Shown here: in pieces, positions 2,489 through 14,195 of the stretch
How the letters are laid out: each line of letters opens with the position of its first letter
How positions within the stretch are numbered: position 1 is the first letter of the stretch
DNA from: Methylobacterium sp. J-026
GTDB lineage: Bacteria; Pseudomonadota; Alphaproteobacteria; Rhizobiales; Beijerinckiaceae
DNA length: 64,000 bases
NCBI RefSeq assembly: GCF_022829585.1
Contig: NZ_JAKSYC010000054.1
Span: 1 to 64,000 of the forward strand
Direction: 5' to 3'
The notes under the pieces: generated by a model
The model's input: the letters and a program-made list of their open reading frames with translations, nothing else
Database searches by the model: none
What the model was told of the DNA's origin: nothing
Position numbers and translations under genes: made by a program

Positions 2489-2515
2489 AACCTGCAGTTC
2501 CAAAGCTGTCAGGTT
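2489..2515. repeat. Imperfect inverted repeat between livM and the next gene
   Basis: AACCTGCAG at 2489-2497 pairs with CTGTCAGGTT at 2506-2515, with one bulged base and an eight-base loop. It sits just ahead of the start codon at 2523. It could be a weak stem after livM or an operator for the small gene; no T-run follows. Confidence 0.3.
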
Positions 2516-2522
2516 CGCCATC

Positions 2523-2873
2523 ATGAAGGCCCGCTCCCTGAGCATCGACGATCCGGCGCTCGATTGCCCGATCCCGCCTGAGACGGTCGGACGCCTGATC
2601 AAGGCGGATCCGGACGGCGCCGCCTCCCTCCTCGACGGTATCCCCGAGGCGACCCGGGCCCGTCTGGCGGTCTGGCTCTACGGCCGCAGCCACACGCACG
2701 AGATCGGCGTCCGGGTGGCGGCGACCTGCGACGGGGCGACCCTGCGCCGGGCTGCCGGCATCGTCGGCAACGCCCTCTACGACCTGTCCCGGCGCCCCTA
2801 CGCGGCGCCGAGCCACGGGACGCGGGCCGGCACGGGCCGCATCACCCTGGGCGGGGCGCAAAGGCGCGCCTGA
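2523..2873 (+). CDS. Hypothetical protein, 116 residues
   Basis: I do not recognise this protein. It has no signal peptide or membrane segment. The central part (LDGIPEATRARLAVWLYGRSHTHEIGVRVAATCDGATLRRAAGIVG, given here only as an approximate helical region, residues about 38-83) looks alpha-helical, and the tail is basic and low in complexity. It is separated from livM by 73 bases and from mutL by 88, on the same strand. The ATG follows CAGGTTCGCCATC, a modest ribosome binding site. Codon use matches the neighbours, so it is probably a real lineage-restricted gene, but no function can be assigned. Confidence 0.6.
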   Translation: MKARSLSIDDPALDCPIPPETVGRLIKADPDGAASLLDGIPEATRARLAVWLYGRSHTHEIGVRVAATCDGATLRRAAGIVGNALYDLSRRPYAAPSHGTRAGTGRITLGGAQRRA

Positions 2874-2961
2874 GCGCCGCTGTCGCGGATCGGGGCTGCA
2901 ACGCGTCGAACGTGGGCAGCCGCCTTCCGGGACGATGCGCCAGGGTCTATCCTCGCGGCCG

Positions 2962-4923
<1,962 letters not shown>

Positions 4924-4926
4924 CGC

Positions 4927-5256
4927 TCAACCGCCCGGCGCGGGCGGCTTCCAGATCTGCGCCGCCACCTCCGCGGCCGCGCTCAGGGCGGCGTGGAGAT
5001 CGGGATCGGCATCGCGCGCGCCGGCGCGGATCGCCCGGACCAGGGCCTCGACCGGCACGCCGGAGAGGACGTTTTCGCCGGCCGCGTGCAGGCGGTCGGC
5101 CTCGGCGATCTCGCGGGCCGCGATGCCGATCGCGTTGGCCACCATCAGGGCGACGTAGCGCGGGCGCCCGGTCAGGCCGGGGACCACCTCCTCGGTCAGC
5201 GCCCGGCGGGCGGCGTCGAGGAGGGCCGCGCCGGAGGGATCGTCCCGCATGCTCAT
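4927..5256 (-). CDS. DUF6285 domain protein, LvaB-like partner of the neighbouring phosphotransferase
   Basis: A 109-residue, mostly helical, soluble protein of the DUF6285 type (conserved RPRYVALMVANAIGIAARE region at residues about 31-49). Its ATG overlaps the stop of the phosphotransferase gene by four bases, which implies coupled translation. In Pseudomonas putida the corresponding small protein LvaB is needed for activity of the kinase LvaA, which phosphorylates 4-hydroxyacyl-CoA. By position and family I infer the same accessory role here. It is the last gene of the minus-strand run that begins with the acyl-CoA dehydrogenase. ATG 5250 is an alternative start. Confidence 0.75.
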   Translation of the reverse strand: MSMRDDPSGAALLDAARRALTEEVVPGLTGRPRYVALMVANAIGIAAREIAEADRLHAAGENVLSGVPVEALVRAIRAGARDADPDLHAALSAAAEVAAQIWKPPAPGG

Positions 5257-6263
5257 CTCCACGCCCCGGGGGCCGTCGCCCGCAGGATCGCCCGTTCGAG
5301 ATCCGGCACCATCCGGCCGGTCAGCGCCAGTTCCAGGGAGAATTCCCGGCCGGAGACGTGCCGCGCGCCCTGCTCCAGGGCGATCACCGCCCAGCGCAGA
5401 TGCGCCATCACCTCCCAGTAGGCGACGCGCGCCGGATCGATGGCGCGCCCCCCGGCCTCCGCGTAGCCCCGGTAGAAGGCCGCGCGGGATCCGATGCCGC
5501 CGGCCTCCAGATCGGGGCGACCGAATCGCCAGCAGGCGGCGCAGAACCAGCCGAGATCCTGGGCCGGATCGCCCCAGCCGGCGAATTCCCAGTCCAGCAC
5601 CGCGGTGAGCCCGGCGGCGTCGACCATGTAGTTGCCGGTGCGGAAGTCCCGGTGCACCAGGGTCGAGGCGGCGCAGTCCGGCGCGCAAACCTCGCCCCAG
5701 CGCAGGCCCCACTCGATCGCCGGCCTCGAGGCCCCGATCCCGTCGAGGCTGGCCCGCAGCCGCGCGATCTCGGCCCGTGCCGGGTCCGGTTCGGGCGCGC
5801 CCAGGAAGGCCAGCGCGGCGGGGGGCGCCCGCGGGTCGAGGGCCGCGTGGATCCGGGCGAGTTCCCCGCCCAGGGTCTCGGTGAGGCGTTCGCGGTCGCC
5901 GCCCAGGGTCAGGTCCTTGGCGATGCGCGGCCCCAGCCCGATCCCCTCGACCAGTCCCATCAGCGCGAACGGCGCGCCGATCACCCCGGGATCGTCGCAG
6001 ACGCCGACCGGCTCGGGAACCTTCACCCCGGCGGCCCAGACCGCCTCCAGGATGTGGAACTCCTCGGCGCGGGACCGGCTCGACGCGATCGTCGCGGGGG
6101 CGTCCATGCGCAGCACGAAGGCCCGCGTCCCGCCGTCGAGCCGGCAGCGGACCAGGCGGTTCTCCTGGATCGAACCGCCGCCGAGGGGGCGGATGTCCTC
6201 GATCACCAGGTCCGGGCAGCCGAGATGCCCGGCGATCCAGGCGCGCAGCCGATCCTGATCCAT
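5253..6263 (-). CDS. APH-family phosphotransferase, LvaA-like (acyl-CoA dehydrogenase associated)
   Basis: A 336-residue aminoglycoside-phosphotransferase-fold kinase. The Brenner motif HRDFRTGN is at residues 204-211 (catalytic Asp206, metal-binding Asn211), the second metal Asp is in VLDWEFAGWGDP (Asp224), and RPLGGGSIQENRL near residue 25 forms the ATP loop. Kinases of this subgroup sit beside, or are fused to, ACAD10/11-type acyl-CoA dehydrogenases; in P. putida LvaA phosphorylates 4-hydroxyvaleryl-CoA. I infer that this enzyme activates a hydroxyacyl-CoA and is not an antibiotic resistance determinant. It starts 3 bases after the SDR gene and overlaps the DUF6285 gene by four bases. Confidence 0.88.
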   Translation of the reverse strand: MDQDRLRAWIAGHLGCPDLVIEDIRPLGGGSIQENRLVRCRLDGGTRAFVLRMDAPATIASSRSRAEEFHILEAVWAAGVKVPEPVGVCDDPGVIGAPFALMGLVEGIGLGPRIAKDLTLGGDRERLTETLGGELARIHAALDPRAPPAALAFLGAPEPDPARAEIARLRASLDGIGASRPAIEWGLRWGEVCAPDCAASTLVHRDFRTGNYMVDAAGLTAVLDWEFAGWGDPAQDLGWFCAACWRFGRPDLEAGGIGSRAAFYRGYAEAGGRAIDPARVAYWEVMAHLRWAVIALEQGARHVSGREFSLELALTGRMVPDLERAILRATAPGAWR

Positions 6264-6266
6264 CGG

Positions 6267-7034
6267 CTACAGGCCCGAGACGAGGTGGCCGCCGTCGACC
6301 GCGACGACGCTGCCGGTCATGTAGGCGCCGGCCTCGGAGGCGAGGAGCAGAAGCGGGCCGTCGAGCTCGGCCGCCTCGCCGAGCCGGCGCTGCGGCACGC
6401 GTTTGATCAGCGCCTTCCCGGCGTCGGACTCGAAGAACGCGTCGTTCAGCTCGGTCTTGATGTAGCCGGGCGCCAGGGCGTTCACCCGAATCCCGTGGCG
6501 CGCCCATTCCAGCGCCAGGCTCTTGGTGAGCTGCACCACCCCGGCCTTCGAGGCCGCGTAGGGCGTGAGACCGCCGGTGACGCGCAGGCCAAGGATCGAG
6601 GCGATGTTGACGATGCTCCCGCCGGTGCCGTGCATAACCATGCGCCGGCCCGTCGCCTGCGCGACCAGCCAGACGCCCTTCAGGTTCGTGTCGAGCACGG
6701 CGTCCCAATCGGCCTCGTCGAGGTCGAGGGCGGGCTTGGTCGCGGTGATCCCGGCATTGTTGACGAGCACCCGGACCGGGCCGAACCGTGCCTCGGCAAC
6801 GTCCAGCGCCCGCTCGATGCTGCCGGCGTCGGTCACGTCCATGACGACGGCGTGGGCCTGACCGCCCGCGGCGGCGACCCGCGCGACGGTGTCGGCGAGG
6901 GCCTCCGCCCGCCGGGCGCAGAGGGTCAGCTGCGCCCCGGCGCGCGCGAGCGTCCCGGCGAAATGGCGGCCGAGGCCGCTGGAGGCGCCGGTGACCAGGA
7001 CGTGCCGGCCGGCGAGATCGAAAAGGTTCGACAT
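6267..7034 (-). CDS. SDR family NAD(P)-dependent oxidoreductase
   Basis: A 255-residue classical short-chain dehydrogenase. The cofactor loop TGASSGLG is at residues 15-22, NNAG at 93-96, and the catalytic set is Ser147, Tyr160 and Lys164 (YAASK). It ends with the usual VAVDGGHLVSGL. In this operon it could reduce a 4-oxoacyl-CoA to the 4-hydroxyacyl-CoA (the LvaD step) or oxidise a 3-hydroxyacyl-CoA. It is only one base away from the thiolase gene upstream and three bases from the phosphotransferase downstream, so it is co-transcribed. Confidence 0.9.
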   Translation of the reverse strand: MSNLFDLAGRHVLVTGASSGLGRHFAGTLARAGAQLTLCARRAEALADTVARVAAAGGQAHAVVMDVTDAGSIERALDVAEARFGPVRVLVNNAGITATKPALDLDEADWDAVLDTNLKGVWLVAQATGRRMVMHGTGGSIVNIASILGLRVTGGLTPYAASKAGVVQLTKSLALEWARHGIRVNALAPGYIKTELNDAFFESDAGKALIKRVPQRRLGEAAELDGPLLLLASEAGAYMTGSVVAVDGGHLVSGL

Positions 7035-7035
7035 C

Positions 7036-8214
7036 TCAGTGCATCCGTTCGAGGGCGAGGGCGATGCCCTGGCCGCCGCCGATGCACATGGTCACGAGCC
7101 CGTAGCGGCCGCCCGTGCGGGCCAGCTCGTAGAGGGCCTTCACCGTGATGATCGCGCCCGAGGCGCCGATCGGGTGGCCCAGCGCGATGGCGCCGCCGTT
7201 CGGATTGACCTTGGCGGGGTCGAGATCGAGGGCGCGGGCGACCGCGCAGGCCTGGGCCGCAAAGGCCTCGTTCGACTCGATCACGTCGAAATCGGCGGCG
7301 CGCAGGCCGGTCCGGTCCAGAAGGCGCCGCACCGCGGGGACCGGGCCCATGCCCATCTCGGACGGGTCCACCCCCGCATGGGCATAGCCGACGATCCGGG
7401 CGAGCGGCGTCGCGCCCGTGCGCTCGGCCTGCGCGGCGCTCGACAGGACCAGGGCGGCGGCGCCATCGTTCAGGCCCGAGGCGTTGCCGGCGGTGACGCT
7501 GCCGGTCTTGGAGAAGGCCGGGCGCAGCTTGGCGAGGTCCTCGACGCCGGTGAGCTTCGGGTGCTCATCGGTGTCGAACGCCACGGTCTCGCGCTTGCGT
7601 TGGACCGGGACCGGCAGGATCTGCTCGCGGAACCGGCCCTCGCGGATCGCCCGGGCGGCCCGGGCCTGGCTCTCCGCGGCGAAGGCGTCTTGCTCGCCCC
7701 GGGAGACCGCGTAGCGCTCGGCCACGTTCTCAGCGGTGACGCCCATATGGCCGTGGCCGAACGGGTCGCTCAGCACACCGACCATGTAGTCGACGAGGCT
7801 GACATCGCCCATCCGCTGGCCGATGCGGCCGGAAGTCAGGAGATGCGGCGACCGGCTCATGCTCTCGGCGCCGCCGGCCAAGGCCGTGTCGGCGTCGCCC
7901 AGCAGGATGGATTGCGCGGCCGAAACGATCGCCTGCAGACCGCTGCCGCAGAGGCGGTTGACGGTGAGGGCCGGCACTTCCTTCGGTACCCCGCCCTCGA
8001 TGGCGGCGACGCGGGCGATGTAGGCGTCCCGCGGCTCGGTGGGGATGACGTTGCCGAACACCACATGTCCGACGGTCTCCGGCGCCGTACCGGACCGCTT
8101 CAACGCCTCCGCCACGCAGAGCGCCGCCAGCTTGGAGGTTGGCGTGCCCGCGAGGCTACCCCCGAAGGTGCCGATCGCGGTCCGCACCGCGCCTGTGATC
8201 ACGACATCGGTCAT
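7036..8214 (-). CDS. Acetyl-CoA C-acyltransferase (thiolase)
   Basis: A 392-residue biosynthetic/degradative thiolase. The acyl-accepting Cys89 lies in NRLCGSGLQ, His347 in [11 protein letters not shown], and Cys377 in CIGGGQG, so the active site is complete. It cleaves 3-ketoacyl-CoA with CoA, or condenses acetyl-CoA units in the reverse reaction. Surrounded by acyl-CoA ligase, dehydrogenase, SDR and kinase genes, it would supply the last step, giving acetyl-CoA plus a shortened acyl-CoA. A relation to PhaA/BktB is possible and fits the nearby phasin. The frame runs further upstream, but homology starts at the ATG at 8214, 16 bases after the dehydrogenase stop. Confidence 0.92.
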
Positions 8215-8230
8215 CGTTTCGCTTTCCGGC

Positions 8231-9436
8231 TCACGCCTCGACCGCCCAGCTCCAGAAGGCATCGCCTTCGGCTTCCAGGCTGCGGTTGAGCACCATTTTG
8301 TGGACCTCGTCAGCCCCGTCCACCAGCCGGGCCTGCCTGGCGTAGCGGTAGATCCATTCCAGCGGCGTGTCGGTGGAATAGCCCCGGGCGCCGTTGATCT
8401 GAATCGCGACATCGGCGGCCGCGTGCAGGAGGTTTGCCACGTGCACCTTGGCCATCGAGACCTCCTTGCGGGCGAAGCTCCCCTGATCCAGCGCCCAGGC
8501 GGCCTTCATCACCAGCAGGCGGCCGATCTCGATCTTCATGGCGAGGTCGCCGAGCATCAGCTGGATGCTCTCGCGGTCGGCGAGCCGGATCCCAAACCCG
8601 TGGCGCTCGGCGGCGTAGGCCCGGGCAACCTCGACGCAGCGCTTCGACAGGCCGAGCCAGCGCATGCAGTGGGTCAGCCGCGCCGGGCCCAGGCGGATCT
8701 GCGTCAGCTTCAGCCCGTCGCCCTCGTTCATCAAAACGTTCTGGGCCGGGATCTCGATCCCGTCGAAGAGCAATTCACAATGGCCGCCATGCTCCTCCGG
8801 GCCCATGATCGGGATGCGGCGCAGGATCTCCCAGCCGGGCTGGTCCCGGTGGAACAAGAAGGCGGTCAGGCCCTTGCGCGCGTCGTCCGAGGTCCGGGCC
8901 ATCAGGATGAAGTGCGCCGCTTCCTCGGCGCCGGTGATGTACCATTTGCGGCCGGTGACCACGTAGGTGTCGCCCCGCCGCTCGGCCCGGGTCTGGATCA
9001 TGCCCGGGTCGGAGCCGCCGCCGGGATGCGGCTCGGTCATGGCGAAGGCCGAGCGGACGGCGCCGCGCACGATCGGGGCGAGCCAGCGCTCTTTCTGGGC
9101 GGGCGTGGCGACCTTCTCCAGCACCATCATGTTGCCGTCGTCCGGCGCCGCCGAATTGAACACCACCGGCCCGAAGATCGAGCGGTTCATGGCCTCGTAG
9201 CAGACCGCCATGCCGACCTTGTCCAGGCCGGCGCCCCCGGTCTCCGGCCTGAGCTGGAGGCACCAGAGCCCCTCGGCCTGCGCCAGGCCGCGCAGCCGGG
9301 CGAGGTCCGGCAGGCCGATATTGCCGTGGCCGTCATAGGCGGAGGGGTCGGATTCCAGCGGCAGGATGTGGGTGTCCACGAAGGCCGCGATCCGGGCGCG
9401 GTAATCCTCCACGCGGGGGGAGATGGTGAAATCCAT
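8231..9436 (-). CDS. Acyl-CoA dehydrogenase family protein, ACAD10/11-like
   Basis: A 401-residue FAD enzyme with the three-part dehydrogenase fold: helical N-terminus, beta middle domain with FAMTEPHPGGGSDP (flavin contact), and helical C-terminus. The tail reads RYARQARLVDGADEVHKM, the variant seen in ACAD10/11-type enzymes, in place of the common GTxEI ending. It is thus probably the LvaC-like enzyme that acts on a phosphorylated 4-hydroxyacyl-CoA, giving the enoyl-CoA. It is the first gene of the five-gene minus-strand run. The frame extends far upstream, but homology starts at the ATG at 9436. Confidence 0.9.
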   Translation of the reverse strand: MDFTISPRVEDYRARIAAFVDTHILPLESDPSAYDGHGNIGLPDLARLRGLAQAEGLWCLQLRPETGGAGLDKVGMAVCYEAMNRSIFGPVVFNSAAPDDGNMMVLEKVATPAQKERWLAPIVRGAVRSAFAMTEPHPGGGSDPGMIQTRAERRGDTYVVTGRKWYITGAEEAAHFILMARTSDDARKGLTAFLFHRDQPGWEILRRIPIMGPEEHGGHCELLFDGIEIPAQNVLMNEGDGLKLTQIRLGPARLTHCMRWLGLSKRCVEVARAYAAERHGFGIRLADRESIQLMLGDLAMKIEIGRLLVMKAAWALDQGSFARKEVSMAKVHVANLLHAAADVAIQINGARGYSTDTPLEWIYRYARQARLVDGADEVHKMVLNRSLEAEGDAFWSWAVEA

Positions 9437-9780
9437 GTCGGGTCGCGGCCTCCGGCCGATGCCTCTAGCGCCGTGCGGACCGGTATTCTTACAGGATCGG
9501 CCGCCGTTATCTGCACCGCGACGAACACGAACCGGGTCGGTGAAACGTATCCCTTCGACGCGGCTCCCGCGCGGTTCATCCAGGACCCGGCCGGCTCGGT
9601 TCGGTCGCGGATCGATCCTGCGGGCTGGCGGCCGGGGTCGCGCCGGGAGAGTTGTCGGTCCAGCCGGTCGACATGTCGAGGCCGCAGCGGAGCGGCGGTC
9701 TGCGCTCATGACAACCCCGGTACGCCCGGGTGGCAGGCGGGACATCGACGGCATCCGACGCGGCGACGTTGCGGCTCCGG
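9437..9780. other. 344-base gene-free stretch between the synthetase and dehydrogenase genes
   Basis: This gap separates the acyl-CoA synthetase stop from the dehydrogenase start, both on the minus strand. Open frames cross it but have no recognisable content and overlap real genes antisense. It most likely holds the promoter of the five-gene run. The part nearest the dehydrogenase start is a little richer in A and T (ATAACGG and GTAAGAATACC on the minus strand). I find no convincing -35/-10 pair, terminator or operator. Confidence 0.4.
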
Positions 9781-11433
9781 TCAGAAATCCCGCGCCCGGT
9801 CCCGGAGGACGAATTTCTGGATCTTCCCGGTCAAGGTCTTGGGCAGGGGACCGAAAACCACGGTCTTGGGCACCTTGAACCGCGCCATCCGCCCGCGGCA
9901 GAAGACGATCACGTCCTGCGCGCTCGGCGCTTCCGTGCCGGGCTTCACCTCCAGGAACGCGCAGGGGCTCTCGCCCCAGGTCGGGTCCGGCCGTGCCACC
10001 ACGGCCGCCAGCATCACCGCGGGATGGCGCATCAGCACCTCCTCCACCTCCAGGCTGGAGATGTTCTCGCCCCCGGAGATGATGATGTCCTTCGCCCGGT
10101 CCTTGATCTCCACGGATCCGTCCGGATGCCAGACCGCGAGGTCGCCGGTCCGGTACCACCCGCCGGCGAGCGCCTGCGCGGTGGCATCGGGATTGCCGAG
10201 ATAGCCCTTCATGATGGTGTTGCCGCGCAGACAGATCTCGCCCACCGCCGTTCCGTCCCGCTGCACCGGCCGGTCAGTGGCCGGGTCGATGACGGTCACG
10301 TCTTCGAGGGTCGCGAGCGGCACGCCCTGGCGCGCCATGCGGGCGTAGCGGTCGTCCTCGGACAGGTCCGCCCAGTCCGGCTGCGCCAGGCAGACGGTCG
10401 CCGGTCCGTAGCTCTCGGTCGCGCCGTAGAGATGCAGCACCTCGAAGCCCAGTTCCTCCATGGTGCGGATGATCGTCGAGGAGGGCGCCGCCCCGCCGAC
10501 GGCGCACCGGACCCGCTGCGGGAAGGCGCGCCGGTCCGCGGCCGGGGCGTGCGCGATCATCGAGAGGACGATCGGGGCGCCGCAGAGATGCGTCACCCCG
10601 TGTTCGGCGATCAGGCGGAAGATCGCGGCCGGCTCGACCTTGCGCAGACAGATCTGGGTCGCGCAGGCGGCGACGCTGGCCCAGGGATAGGACCAGCCGC
10701 TGCAATGGAACATCGGCAGCGTCCAGAGATAGACGCTGTCGGCGGTCAACCCGAAGGTGACGGCGTTGCCAAGCGCCTGAAGATAGGCGCCGCGGTGGCT
10801 GTAGACCGCGCCCTTCGGATCCCCGGTCGTGCCGGAGGTGTAGAGCAGGCAGAGGGACTGCCATTCGTCGGCGGGTCCGGTCCAGGCGTGGTCCGGATCG
10901 CCGGCCGCGAGCAGCGCTTCGTAGGGGATCGCACCGGGTATGCCGGTCTCGCCGATCGCCACCACCAGGATCGGCTCGGGACAGGCGCTCAGGGCCTGGG
11001 CGGCCAGCGGGGCGCAGTCGGCCTCGACGAGCAGCACCCGGGCGCCACCATGGGCCAGCGAGAAGGCGATCGTCGCTGGATCGAGGCGGGTGTTCAGCGG
11101 GTTCAGCACGGCGCCGAGCATCGGCACGGCGAAATGGGCCTCGATCATCTCGGGGACGTTCGGGGCGAGGATCGCCACGGTGTCGAGGCGCCCGATCCCG
11201 TGCCCGGCCAGGCCCGAGGCCAGGCGGCGGCAGCGCGCGTAGAGTTCGGCATAGGTCAGGCGCCGGGCGCCGTCGATCACCGCAATCCGCCCGCCCGCCG
11301 CCGCCGCGGCGCGCGCCAGGAGGCTCACCGGGGTCAGGGGGACGTGATTGGCTGGAGTCCGGTCGAGGTCGGTCTCGAACGGGTGACGGCCGGCGGCGCC
11401 GGACCGTGCGGGGCGCGGATGGGACTCCGTCAT
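9781..11433 (-). CDS. AMP-dependent acyl-CoA synthetase (LvaE-like position)
   Basis: A 550-residue ANL-superfamily ligase that makes acyl-CoA from a carboxylic acid, ATP and CoA. The adenylation P-loop YTSGTTGDPKGAVYSHRG is present, followed by LYGATESYGP, GWYRTGDLAVWHPDG and the hinge/core motif KDIIISGGENISSLEVEE; the C-terminal catalytic lysine is in LPKTLTGKIQKF. Similarity is to medium/long-chain fatty acid ligases. It lies 344 bases upstream of the dehydrogenase on the same strand, so it would activate the substrate of that pathway. It diverges from the phasin gene across a 221-base region. Confidence 0.92.
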   Translation of the reverse strand: MTESHPRPARSGAAGRHPFETDLDRTPANHVPLTPVSLLARAAAAAGGRIAVIDGARRLTYAELYARCRRLASGLAGHGIGRLDTVAILAPNVPEMIEAHFAVPMLGAVLNPLNTRLDPATIAFSLAHGGARVLLVEADCAPLAAQALSACPEPILVVAIGETGIPGAIPYEALLAAGDPDHAWTGPADEWQSLCLLYTSGTTGDPKGAVYSHRGAYLQALGNAVTFGLTADSVYLWTLPMFHCSGWSYPWASVAACATQICLRKVEPAAIFRLIAEHGVTHLCGAPIVLSMIAHAPAADRRAFPQRVRCAVGGAAPSSTIIRTMEELGFEVLHLYGATESYGPATVCLAQPDWADLSEDDRYARMARQGVPLATLEDVTVIDPATDRPVQRDGTAVGEICLRGNTIMKGYLGNPDATAQALAGGWYRTGDLAVWHPDGSVEIKDRAKDIIISGGENISSLEVEEVLMRHPAVMLAAVVARPDPTWGESPCAFLEVKPGTEAPSAQDVIVFCRGRMARFKVPKTVVFGPLPKTLTGKIQKFVLRDRARDF

Positions 11434-11654
11434 CGTTGTGCCTTCTGGTCGGGCGCGAAATCGTTGTGGCGCGTGGCGTTCGCTCCGACGGAGGATGATT
11501 TCCCGCCCGACCCGGCTGTCAATCGCCGCCGCGTCCCGGGCCGGTGCCCCCGTCCGGTTCTGTCACCCCGCATGGTTGACGGCGGGGCGACCCTGGCCGA
11601 TGCCCGTAACCTGGGGTCGGGCCGATCCGGGCCGGCGATGGAGGGAAGGCGACC

Positions 11655-12194
11655 GTGGGGAACGACAACGGGCCGATGGTCTCCACGCAGGCGGGACGGG
11701 CCATGGCCGAGGGCGGCGTGGCGCGGGCGCGCGAAGCCTACGAGCGCTTTGCCGAGGCCGGCGAGATGGCGTTGAACGCCTTCGAGGCCTCGATGGCCCA
11801 GACCTTCGAGGGGTGGCGCTCGGTGATGGGCTCCAGCCGCGAGACCGCCAACCACCTCAGCGAGAGCAACGCGGCGGGCGCCCGGCGGATGCGCGAGCAG
11901 TGGGAGGCCGCTGGTGCGCGCCTCTACAACGCCTTCGAGGACAACACCGTGCACACGCTGGCGGCGATGCGCGAGATCGGGCATCGCGTGCTCGTCGCCT
12001 CGGACACGAACGTCCGCGCCACCCTGGACTATGCCGAGCGCGTCGCGCAGGCGGCCGATGCCCGGGAGGCGGCGGCCCTGAACGCGGCCTTCCTGCAGGA
12101 GCAGGCGCGCCGGCTGACGGACCAGATGGTCGACATCCACCAGACCACCGGCCGGCTCGCCCGCGAGGCCGCGGCGCGCACGGAAAAACCGTGA
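11655..12194 (+). CDS. Phasin family protein
   Basis: A 179-residue amphipathic helical protein of the phasin type: long Ala/Glu-rich helices, no signal peptide, and the AYERFAEAGEMALNAFEASMAQ pattern near residues 29-50 (quoted in part: YERFAEAGEMALNAF). Phasins coat polyhydroxyalkanoate granules and control their size. It begins with GTG after a strong GAGGGAAGG ribosome binding site at 11641. Its stop overlaps the GTG start of the following hydrolase by four bases, so the two are translationally coupled. Phasin-fold proteins are weakly conserved, so granule binding is probable and unproven. Confidence 0.82.
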   Translation: MGNDNGPMVSTQAGRAMAEGGVARAREAYERFAEAGEMALNAFEASMAQTFEGWRSVMGSSRETANHLSESNAAGARRMREQWEAAGARLYNAFEDNTVHTLAAMREIGHRVLVASDTNVRATLDYAERVAQAADAREAAALNAAFLQEQARRLTDQMVDIHQTTGRLAREAAARTEKP

Positions 12195-13129
12195 CGGCCG
12201 ACCCGGCGGCGCGCGCGCTTCCGGTGACGGCGATGCCGCGGCTCGACGATCTCAGCCAGGCCGACGTTCCGTTCCGGACCGGCGATTTCCTCGCCTACGC
12301 GCCCCACGATTTCCACCGCATCGCCTATGTCGAGTGGGGCGACCCGGACAGCGCGCGCGTGGTCGTGTGCGTCCACGGACTGAGCCGCCAGGGCCGGGAT
12401 TTCGATCCCCTCGGCTACAGGCTGGCGAAGATGGGCTACCGGGTCGTCTGCCCCGACCTGCCGGGGCGCGGGCTCAGCGGCTGGCTCAGGGATCCGGAAC
12501 TCTACGGCCTGCCGCAATACGCCGCCGACATGGCGGCGCTCATCGCGCATCTGCGGATCCGCGGACCGATCGACTGGGTCGGCACGTCCCTCGGCGGCCT
12601 GACCGGCATGGTCCTGGCCGCGTCGGCCAACACGCCGATCCGCCGCATGGTGATCAACGATATCGGTCCGTTCCTGCCCTGGGCGCCGATCCGCCACATC
12701 GGCTCGCGCCTGCGCGACGCGCCGCGGCTGCACCACAACCTCGCCTCGGGCGAGTCGCGCCTGCGCACCGTCCTCGGATCCTTCGGGCCGCTGACCGACG
12801 AGCAGTGGCGCCACATCGCCAAATACAGCTTCTTCCGGGAGCCGAACGGAGGCTGGCGGCCCCATTACGATCCGGGCATCGGCGACGCGTTCAGGCCCGG
12901 ACGGGTCTACAGCGTCAGCATGTGGCGCGACTGGGACGCGATCACCTGTCCGGTCCTGCTGTTGCGCGGGGCGCAATCGGAACTCCTCCTCGCCGCCACC
13001 GCCGACGAGATGACCCGGCGGGGGCCGCCGACGGAGCGCGTCGAGATTCCGGATTGCGGCCATGCCCCCGCCCTCCTGGACGATCGCCAACTCGCGATCG
13101 TGACGGATTGGCTCGGGCCGGCATCCTAG
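12191..13129 (+). CDS. Alpha/beta hydrolase
   Basis: A 312-residue alpha/beta hydrolase. The oxyanion strand CVHGLSRQGRD is at residues 60-70, the nucleophile elbow GTSLGG puts Ser133 at the centre, and the catalytic His291 lies in PDCGHAPALL. No signal peptide is seen, so it is cytoplasmic. The GTG at 12191 overlaps the phasin stop as GTGA; an internal ATG at 12233 is an alternative. Coupling with a phasin suggests an esterase or intracellular PHA oligomer hydrolase, but the substrate is unknown and haloalkane dehalogenase or lactonase relatives are equally possible on motifs alone. Confidence 0.85.
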   Translation: MTADPAARALPVTAMPRLDDLSQADVPFRTGDFLAYAPHDFHRIAYVEWGDPDSARVVVCVHGLSRQGRDFDPLGYRLAKMGYRVVCPDLPGRGLSGWLRDPELYGLPQYAADMAALIAHLRIRGPIDWVGTSLGGLTGMVLAASANTPIRRMVINDIGPFLPWAPIRHIGSRLRDAPRLHHNLASGESRLRTVLGSFGPLTDEQWRHIAKYSFFREPNGGWRPHYDPGIGDAFRPGRVYSVSMWRDWDAITCPVLLLRGAQSELLLAATADEMTRRGPPTERVEIPDCGHAPALLDDRQLAIVTDWLGPAS

Positions 13130-13520
13130 CCCTGCGACGACGGCGGGCATGATGCGGCGGGGCTGCGCCCAGCGGAATCGCGTCAGTCGAACTCTTGGGC
13201 GATGCCGGCGCGAATGTGCATCTCCGTCGCCGCTTCAAATATTCATCCGCCGATCCCTGCGTAGTTTAATCGGTGCACAATAAGTTCAATACAATGCGCG
13301 CGCCGAGGCGCGGACGGGCATTGCACAGATCGCGCAACCATCTTCGATATCTCAGATGTCGCCGCCGCGACCTTTCGTTGCGTGCTGGGCTTGGCTGTGG
13401 CATCTACTGATCGCAGGCCAGATTCCCGGCCGCACGATATGGCAGCTGTGTGTTGTGGTCGGCGGTTCGGGGTGCGGTTGTGCATGCCCGCCAACAGAGA
13501 CGACGTTCGGACCCCGACCC
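13130..13520. other. 391-base intergenic region upstream of the XRE regulator
   Basis: This region is richer in A and T than its surroundings around 13240-13290 and includes TTTAATCGGTGCACAATAAG. A possible sigma-70 pair is TTGCAC at 13321 and CGATAT at 13345 with an 18-base spacer. The regulator frame stays open back to 13356 and would encode a hydrophobic, Trp-rich leader, which I do not believe is translated. No RNA gene or repeat is recognised. Confidence 0.35.
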
Positions 13521-13967
13521 ATGGCCAAGTCCAGTCCAAAGCCGAAGCAGACGACGGCGATCGATCATGGCGTCGGCAGCCGCATCGCGTTCCTGCGCGC
13601 GGCGAACGGGCTGAGCCAGTCCGCCTTGGCCAGCGCGCTCGGGGTGAGCTTCCAGCAGGTCCAGAAATACGAGACGGGCAAGAACCGGGTCGGGGCTGGC
13701 CGCCTGCAGGCGATCGCCGAGCGGCTCGGCGTCCCGGTATCGAGCTTCTTCGAGCCGGAGGCCGAGAACGCGGCGGATAACGGTCCGGCCTTGCTGCGCG
13801 TGTCCGGGGCCGTGGAACTCCTGCGCGCCTACAATCAGATCGCCGACGATCAGATGCGCCGCGATGTTCTGAGCCTCGTGAAATCCGCGGCGCGGATCGG
13901 CCACCAGCGGGCCATCGAGGCCGCCGCCGCGGACAATGCCTCCCACAGTGCGGCTCCGGGCGCCTGA
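13521..13967 (+). CDS. XRE family helix-turn-helix transcriptional regulator
   Basis: A 148-residue DNA-binding protein. Residues about 17-73 form a Cro/C1-type HTH: RIAFLRAANGLSQSALASAL, then VSFQQVQKYETGKNRVGAGRL. The C-terminal half is helical (VELLRAYNQIADDQMRRDVLSLV). This architecture is common among rhizobial regulators in which the HTH is followed by a short helical tail. The ATG at 13521 fits the family start although its ribosome binding site is poor. It stands alone between the hydrolase and the convergent rsmD gene, so its target cannot be inferred; phasin control is one possibility. Confidence 0.88.
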   Translation: MAKSSPKPKQTTAIDHGVGSRIAFLRAANGLSQSALASALGVSFQQVQKYETGKNRVGAGRLQAIAERLGVPVSSFFEPEAENAADNGPALLRVSGAVELLRAYNQIADDQMRRDVLSLVKSAARIGHQRAIEAAAADNASHSAAPGA

Positions 13968-14195
13968 GGTCGACCGGCGCGCTCGGCCGAGACGGGCCCC
14001 GCAGACGCGATGGGACCCGGGTAGGGTCGTCGCGAAGCCTCACCATCGGCCGCTGTCGGGAAGGGTGCCTCGAAGCGACCGGTCCGTCGACCGTCCGGCT
14101 CCCGCATCGTCTGCTCCGAAAGCCGGAGGGTCACCCCGCGGGACGGTGTTGGCCCGATCCGGCGGGTGAGCTGACCGACGGCGCAGTTCGCGCGG

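Follow-up and report, generated by a model that had tools for sequence, protein, structure and literature searches.

A putative phosphorylation-dependent module for 4-oxo and 4-hydroxy acids in Methylobacterium sp. J-026 and its kinase-DUF6285 pair

Which acids would a Methylobacterium degrade with acyl-coenzyme A (acyl-CoA) enzymes and an aminoglycoside-phosphotransferase (APH)-fold kinase encoded side by side? The question is raised by six genes at positions 4927 to 11433 of a 64,000-nucleotide stretch of Methylobacterium sp. J-026 (contig NZ_JAKSYC010000054.1; the whole stretch is called the window below), which a first-pass annotation had taken for a complete levulinate/4-hydroxyacid gene set with a built-in thiolase. 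We consider, with a probability of about 80%, that the block serves to degrade 4-oxo/4-hydroxy acids in a phosphorylation-dependent manner, working like the Lva pathway of Pseudomonas and the mammalian kinase-dehydrogenase fusions ACAD10 and ACAD11. The predicted reaction type, 4-hydroxyacyl-CoA to 4-phosphoacyl-CoA to enoyl-CoA, is well supported from sequence because the dehydrogenase carries the phosphate-site residues and has a kinase, a DUF6285 protein and a short-chain dehydrogenase/reductase (SDR) as partners.

Gene set and dehydrogenase phosphate site

All six open reading frames (ORFs) are intact and lie on the minus strand. The gene at 9781-11433 encodes an AMP (adenosine monophosphate)-forming acyl-CoA ligase of the PRK08162 subfamily (NCBIfam, 780.7 bits, cut-off 677), followed by genes for an acyl-CoA dehydrogenase-family enzyme (8231-9436), a beta-ketothiolase of the BktB subfamily (7036-8214; NCBIfam PRK09051, 646.7 bits, cut-off 565), an LvaD-like SDR oxidoreductase (6267-7034), an APH-fold kinase of the LvaA type (5253-6263; Pfam PF01636, catalytic Asp and Asn present) and an LvaB-like DUF6285 protein of 109 residues (4927-5256; Pfam PF19802, 38.8 bits, cut-off 28.1). 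The last five genes are spaced by 16, 1 and 3 bases, with a 4-base overlap of the kinase gene and the DUF6285 gene at the end, just as first described. Pfam matches the family of every one of the six proteins above its cut-off, each gene has close homologues in the genus, and the ratio of nonsynonymous to synonymous substitution rates (dN/dS) is 0.08-0.35 for all six when compared with two relatives (L041, L045), so that the genes are maintained under purifying selection. They are real genes, not chance ORFs.

The closest sequence match of the dehydrogenase in the Protein Data Bank (PDB) is mouse ACAD11 (8v3u, E 2.4e-68). In ACAD11, according to excerpts of PMC12440821, R626, H634 and R637 contact the 4-phosphate, R631 contributes to substrate positioning and D753 acts as catalytic base. 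The window dehydrogenase has equivalents of all five residues, as do 59 of 59 aligned family members (window and mouse included). None of five ordinary acyl-CoA dehydrogenases, drawn as controls from the same fetched records, has them; these controls are on long branches and poorly aligned. In a maximum-likelihood tree, the 59 sequences form three groups, with 12 of the ACAD11 type, 19 of the LvaC type and 28 of the window lineage, and each group stays together in 100% of the 200 bootstrap trees (window clade support 100/99). Judged by its sequence, the window enzyme is no LvaC orthologue, because it is 42% identical to LvaC and falls outside the LvaC bootstrap group, yet its predicted phosphate site is complete.

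Among 289 alphaproteobacterial genomes we found 37 dehydrogenases of the window lineage. Within 3.5 kb, 18 of them have an LvaA-type and four an ACAD11-type kinase among the kinases listed. Plasmids carry both combinations, with ACAD11-type kinases in Chelatococcus, Sulfitobacter and Pseudosulfitobacter and with LvaA-type kinases in Azospirillum and Paroceanicella. The occurrence of one dehydrogenase lineage with either kinase class argues that both classes make the same kind of product.

The genome of J-026 also contains a second system, of the ACAD11 type (L027, G000:C199:1-8476), in which a dehydrogenase 39% identical to that of the window is followed by an ACAD11-type kinase, with branched-chain-type ATP-binding cassette (ABC) permeases in front.

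The lva operon lvaABCDE of P. putida KT2440 was reportedly described in Rand et al. 2017. As lva references, the clusters of P. putida 31753 (L071) and of the P. aeruginosa plasmid p12939-PER (L038) stand in here for that of KT2440, which is also covered in excerpts of PMC6692424, PMC9399607 and PMC11342911. Compared with P. putida 31753, the kinase is 51% identical to LvaA, the DUF6285 protein 37% to LvaB and the SDR 56% to LvaD (56-57% overall); identities to the p12939-PER cluster, where the DUF6285 gene bears the annotation lvaB, are similar. The case for the SDR as an LvaD relative is convincing, since the next SDR of the same genome reaches only 42%. A comparison with LvaA-E thus bears out the proposed kinase, DUF6285 and SDR counterparts; it fails for the dehydrogenase, which belongs to another lineage, and is not diagnostic for the ligase, which is 53-54% identical to LvaE (53% in P. 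putida 31753) and 58% to a paralogue in its own genome. We therefore rejected the ligase as evidence for levulinate, to which it had been thought to point.

As in lva, an LvaA-type kinase gene is followed by a DUF6285 gene, an LvaD-like SDR and a dehydrogenase with the same phosphate-site residues are present, and a PRK08162 ligase lies nearby. Unlike in lva, the order is dehydrogenase-thiolase-SDR-kinase-DUF6285 (a difference already recognized by the first-pass annotation), the thiolase is embedded, the ligase is separate, and no LvaR or LvaFG stands beside the block. With ACAD10/ACAD11 the module shares, as far as sequence can tell, a kinase and a putatively phosphate-eliminating dehydrogenase with R626, R631, H634, R637 and D753; it differs in that the proteins are separate, the kinase is of the other class with a DUF6285 partner, and the dehydrogenase is 36% identical. 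Identities of 62% (ACAD10) and 56% (ACAD11) to LvaC, given in excerpts of PMC11342911, were not reproduced: LvaC of P. putida 31753 is 33% identical to mouse ACAD11. A related layout is found on a Massilia putida plasmid (L067), where a single run comprises dehydrogenase, SDR, kinase and DUF6285 together with a thiolase 65% identical to that of the window; a gene of the ligase family lies beyond, its product only 26% identical to the window ligase. Unlike in the window, the L067 dehydrogenase is of the LvaC lineage and the thiolase follows DUF6285.

From the gene families, lineages, conservation, phosphate-site residues and kinase-DUF6285 coupling we infer a route, the order of its steps and the kind of substrate. 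The CoA ester would be formed by an acyl-CoA ligase, either that of the neighbouring gene or a different one, and the SDR would reduce the 4-oxoacyl-CoA to a 4-hydroxyacyl-CoA. The APH kinase, with DUF6285 as a subunit, would phosphorylate the 4-hydroxyl, and the dehydrogenase would eliminate the phosphate with transient flavin redox to give a 2-enoyl-CoA, a redox-neutral step. Hydratase and 3-hydroxyacyl-CoA dehydrogenase would be supplied from elsewhere in the genome, and the BktB-type thiolase would cleave a short 3-ketoacyl-CoA, releasing acetyl-CoA and leaving an acyl-CoA of reduced length. The route through 4-hydroxy- and 4-phosphoacyl-CoA that had been suggested from the first is thus supported by the LvaA-type kinase and its LvaB-type partner, by the LvaD-like SDR and by the phosphate-site residues of the dehydrogenase. 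The thiolase, whose gene comes after that of the dehydrogenase at all 12 genus loci, does belong to the set. The set is not complete, however, nor does the thiolase finish the route within the operon, as had also been claimed: the set's genes include neither an enoyl-CoA hydratase nor a 3-hydroxyacyl-CoA dehydrogenase, so that two beta-oxidation steps are missing.

DUF6285 and the two kinase classes

A tree of the kinases splits an LvaA type from an ACAD11 type (support 100/100) and places the window kinase in the LvaA-type clade. The kinase piece of mouse ACAD11 is 26% identical to the window kinase, 30-60% identical to 13 ACAD11-type kinases and 21-27% identical to 26 LvaA-type kinases.

DUF6285 follows this division. 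It is present in 66 of the 289 alphaproteobacterial genomes, at 71 places, and an LvaA-type kinase lies directly upstream on the same strand, or is fused to it, in all 71; the single match in the J-026 genome is the window gene. Conversely, DUF6285 adjoins 71 of 79 LvaA-type kinases and none of the 150 ACAD11-type kinases listed. Kinase and DUF6285 share one stop-free frame at 13 of the 71 places. In these 13 and in a fourteenth case (L059), both Pfam families match a single ORF, with start codons that we picked; in one of them, L148, DUF6285 scores 26.9, slightly below the cut-off of 28.1. Among 80 LvaC-type loci of named genomes, the DUF6285 gene stands beside an LvaA-type kinase in 45 of the 45 that show one. 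This strict pairing agrees with what excerpts of PMC6692424 cite from Rand et al. 2017: LvaB is reported to bind LvaA, as seen in a pulldown, and a strain with lvaB deleted to grow no longer on levulinate. We found no earlier description of the pairing, and no occurrence of the word DUF6285, in the open-access literature searched. Of the general findings of this analysis, the most useful is that DUF6285 is strictly paired, and in part fused, with a single kinase class.

What the partner does may be connected with a residue that distinguishes the classes. All 12 ACAD11-type kinases with letters at the position have an arginine in helix alpha-C, whereas 25 of 26 LvaA-type kinases have Glu or Gln there (the exception is L059). 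In ACAD11 this arginine, published as R86, is a modelled CoA contact; we take R86 to be position 84 of our alignment because it adjoins the alpha-C glutamate. Our guess is that DUF6285 replaces the role of this arginine in LvaA-type kinases. ACAD11 R176 was rejected as a class marker, as it occurs in both classes.

A broader proposal, which we put forward tentatively and with some doubt, is that there may be two interchangeable classes of 4-hydroxyacyl-CoA kinase, one of which has DUF6285 as its obligate second subunit. LvaA-type kinases would need it, separate or fused, for binding of the CoA substrate or for activation, ACAD11-type kinases would need no partner, and the products of both would go to a single superfamily of phosphate-eliminating dehydrogenases, with the window enzyme in its third lineage. 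The DUF6285 protein itself is predicted to form four helices (mean predicted local distance difference test score, pLDDT, 81; predicted template modelling score, pTM, 0.56), and neither a PDB profile search nor a fold search with this model returned a credible relative. NCBIfam has no family for the window protein or three homologues, and we dropped it as a test of LvaB membership.

Several DUF6285 loci deserve separate mention. A 748-residue open frame at L154:194-2437 (minus strand) joins kinase, DUF6285 and SDR domains, and is possibly a natural triple fusion of pathway parts. In 17 of 17 Pseudomonas lva loci with a histidine phosphatase, a DUF6285 gene lies between the kinase and this phosphatase, for instance at L089 5882-6253, L093 5886-6257, L097 5884-6255 and L099 1291-1662. 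The phosphatase-bearing cluster of P. citronellolis LA18T is reported without lvaB in excerpts of PMC6692424; judged from the other Pseudomonas loci, its lvaB may have been overlooked. Histidine-phosphatase-family genes also stand beside DUF6285 in Azospirillum (L037 11647-12360), Thermus (L039 9475-10128) and Stutzerimonas (L066 8243-9004), where they perhaps serve to clear stalled phosphoacyl-CoA.

Candidate substrates and competing explanations

The first-pass annotation had left the choice between levulinate and another 4-oxo/4-hydroxy acid. The reaction type stands; levulinate itself is unproven, as the dehydrogenase is not an LvaC orthologue. BktB thiolases act on substrates of short chain length, and the thiolase type therefore makes a short-chain substrate most likely. 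Levulinate is possible, and it is not favoured over other 4-oxo/4-hydroxy acids.

The substrate proposal that fares best, although we rate it somewhat below an even chance, is that the substrate is one of these other acids: 4-hydroxybutyrate, C6-C10 4-hydroxy acids derived from gamma-lactones, or fragments of oxidised lipids. ACAD10 and ACAD11 accept 4-hydroxyacyl-CoAs of several lengths, according to excerpts of PMC12440821 and PMC11342911, and the neighbours of the window lineage vary among other bacteria, including tripartite ATP-independent periplasmic (TRAP) and branched-chain ABC transporters, TetR regulators and a histidine phosphatase. Chain length, on the other hand, is hinted at only by the BktB-type thiolase of the set.

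A strict levulinate operon, with the substrate and steps of P. putida lvaABCDE in a changed gene order, is conceivable but in our judgement rather doubtful. LvaA-, LvaB-, LvaD- and LvaE-like proteins do occur together, and a BktB-type thiolase would suit 3-ketovaleryl-CoA. An argument against levulinate also disappears with the genome G002, whose block at L046 has lost the SDR: an 88% identical orthologue is present at its mutL locus, and we dropped the idea that the SDR is optional. Its retention makes a 4-oxo substrate somewhat more likely. Against a levulinate operon stand the lineage of the dehydrogenase, the unspecific match of the ligase and the lack of LvaR and LvaFG homologues: tblastn with the three L038 proteins (E 1e-10) gave no match in the window or in the 12 genus loci L040-L051. 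Engineered Methylorubrum extorquens AM1 moreover did not consume levulinate, according to excerpts of PMC8714952, in a strain not checked for the module. That no sigma-54 regulator or transporter adjoins the block, another early claim, accordingly holds for LvaR and LvaFG. A transporter is nevertheless nearby: branched-chain-type ABC permeases are encoded at 554-2449, and the terminal part of a binding protein at 73-525, ahead of mutL, a position conserved in relatives.

We regard it as improbable that the kinase acts on a different alcohol beside an ordinary dehydrogenase. The model for such a role is the 25-hydroxy steroid kinase of anaerobic cholesterol degradation, likewise an APH-fold kinase for ATP-dependent alcohol dehydration, but with a steroid as substrate (excerpts of PMC8449060). 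The predicted structure of the window kinase (mean pLDDT 91) does resemble this enzyme: Foldseek ranks 3dxp first and the steroid kinase, 9fsg, second. The model confirms only the APH fold, however, and a profile of 25 kinases searched against the PDB has ACAD11 (8v3v, E 6.6e-26) in first place, above 9fsg (E 4.7e-15); the window kinase searched alone finds 9o56 first, then 3dxp, with 8v3v third. The neighbouring dehydrogenase, moreover, has its 4-phosphoacyl-CoA residues intact. Least probable of all, to the point of being negligible, is the idea that beta-oxidation genes came by chance to lie next to an unrelated aminoglycoside-phosphotransferase-like gene: both the APH and the dehydrogenase families are large and common, but the operon is conserved in the genus, the association is repeated in other families, and kinase and dehydrogenase are jointly absent from eight genus genomes (at E 1e-60 none of the eight has a member of the dehydrogenase family, and at E 1e-10 none has a kinase match), counts that already contradict chance.

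Several observations weigh against a phosphorylation-dependent module for 4-oxo/4-hydroxy acids. Identities of the dehydrogenase to LvaC and ACAD11 are low (the 42% to LvaC of P. putida 31753 and 36% to mouse ACAD11 given above), and our search of the open-access literature turned up no tested enzyme of its lineage. Fifteen of the 37 window-lineage dehydrogenases have no listed kinase within 3.5 kb, and one genus genome, G016 (L050), keeps only dehydrogenase and thiolase, with no kinase match and no SDR closer than 40% in the genome. ACAD11 is not among the best 50 rows of the fold search with the kinase model. The 12 aligned DUF6285 proteins of the genus end in a WK-containing C-terminal tail instead of the SNPK-like motif present in most other DUF6285 proteins aligned. 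The hydratase and 3-hydroxyacyl-CoA dehydrogenase missing from the set belong here as well.

Conservation, inversion and implications

The window-lineage dehydrogenase is present in 16 of 25 genus genomes, that of J-026 included. In the closer subgroup, which comprises 12 loci (L040-L051), the thiolase gene always comes next; the two matched stretches are 20 to 268 bases apart, and ten of the 12 loci have the full five-gene set. In G002 the set is split, with dehydrogenase, thiolase, kinase and DUF6285 at L046 and SDR and ligase at the mutL locus (L163), so that the two places together hold the whole set. The split perhaps arose after a duplication like that in G007, where one and the same 19-kb stretch carries a second five-gene block, this copy without mutL (L043 8457-13934) and with a GntR/FCD-type regulator gene directly ahead of its dehydrogenase. 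For the dehydrogenase at four further genus loci (L052-L055), a plasmid of Methylobacterium aquaticum (L062) encodes an almost identical counterpart.

Outside the genus, the association with the thiolase is scattered. The window thiolase scores 612.7 bits for the BktB equivalog, short of the cut-off of 725, and thiolases 65-66% identical to it stand beside the module in Massilia (L067) and Sulfitobacter (L060). These BktB-like thiolases and those of the genus accompany dehydrogenases of two different lineages. The thiolase has matches at E 1e-130 in 17 other non-genus genomes, by inspection never within 3 kb of a window-lineage dehydrogenase; in G262 the two are about 6 kb apart. The link has therefore arisen more than once or has rarely been kept.

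The arrangement of all six genes on one strand departs from that of the relatives compared. In five of five mutL-syntenic relatives that have the whole block (L040, L041, L042, L044 and L045), mutL, dehydrogenase, thiolase, SDR, kinase and DUF6285 lie on one strand and the ligase faces them; by blastn of window positions 4000-12500, the five-gene block is reversed against all five, from about 4924 to 9475. The ligase is on the strand opposite to the block in seven of eight genus loci that hold both, and the SDR at the G002 mutL locus has the non-inverted orientation. The one-strand layout is thus derived in this genome, as the ligase kept its ancestral orientation while the block turned. The 344-base gap between ligase and dehydrogenase (9437-9780) holds the right breakpoint, and its part 9476-9780 aligns to none of the five relatives. 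We sought inverted repeats at the breakpoints and found no long one, and a transposition-like cause was set aside; the inversion may also be a contig misassembly. A single promoter-like match lies upstream of the ligase, and no terminator-like site was seen in the gap. The ligase is syntenic with the block and not clearly on the same transcript. Rfam gave no match at gathering thresholds in 2500-14000. Beside the ligase a divergent phasin gene (11655-12194, plus strand) keeps its position in relatives, and a link to polyhydroxyalkanoate storage is possible.

The chemistry itself is already known from Lva and ACAD10/ACAD11; what is new is the third dehydrogenase lineage and the built-in thiolase. 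The module would extend to this lineage a young pathway, that of levulinate in Pseudomonas and of ACAD10/ACAD11 in mammals. The strong genomic rule that DUF6285 accompanies LvaA-type rather than ACAD11-type kinases opens the role of LvaB to direct testing and lets annotators separate the two kinase classes. Methylobacterium sp. J-026 is predicted to use 4-hydroxy or 4-oxo acids, which is relevant to the valorisation of levulinate and gamma-lactones.

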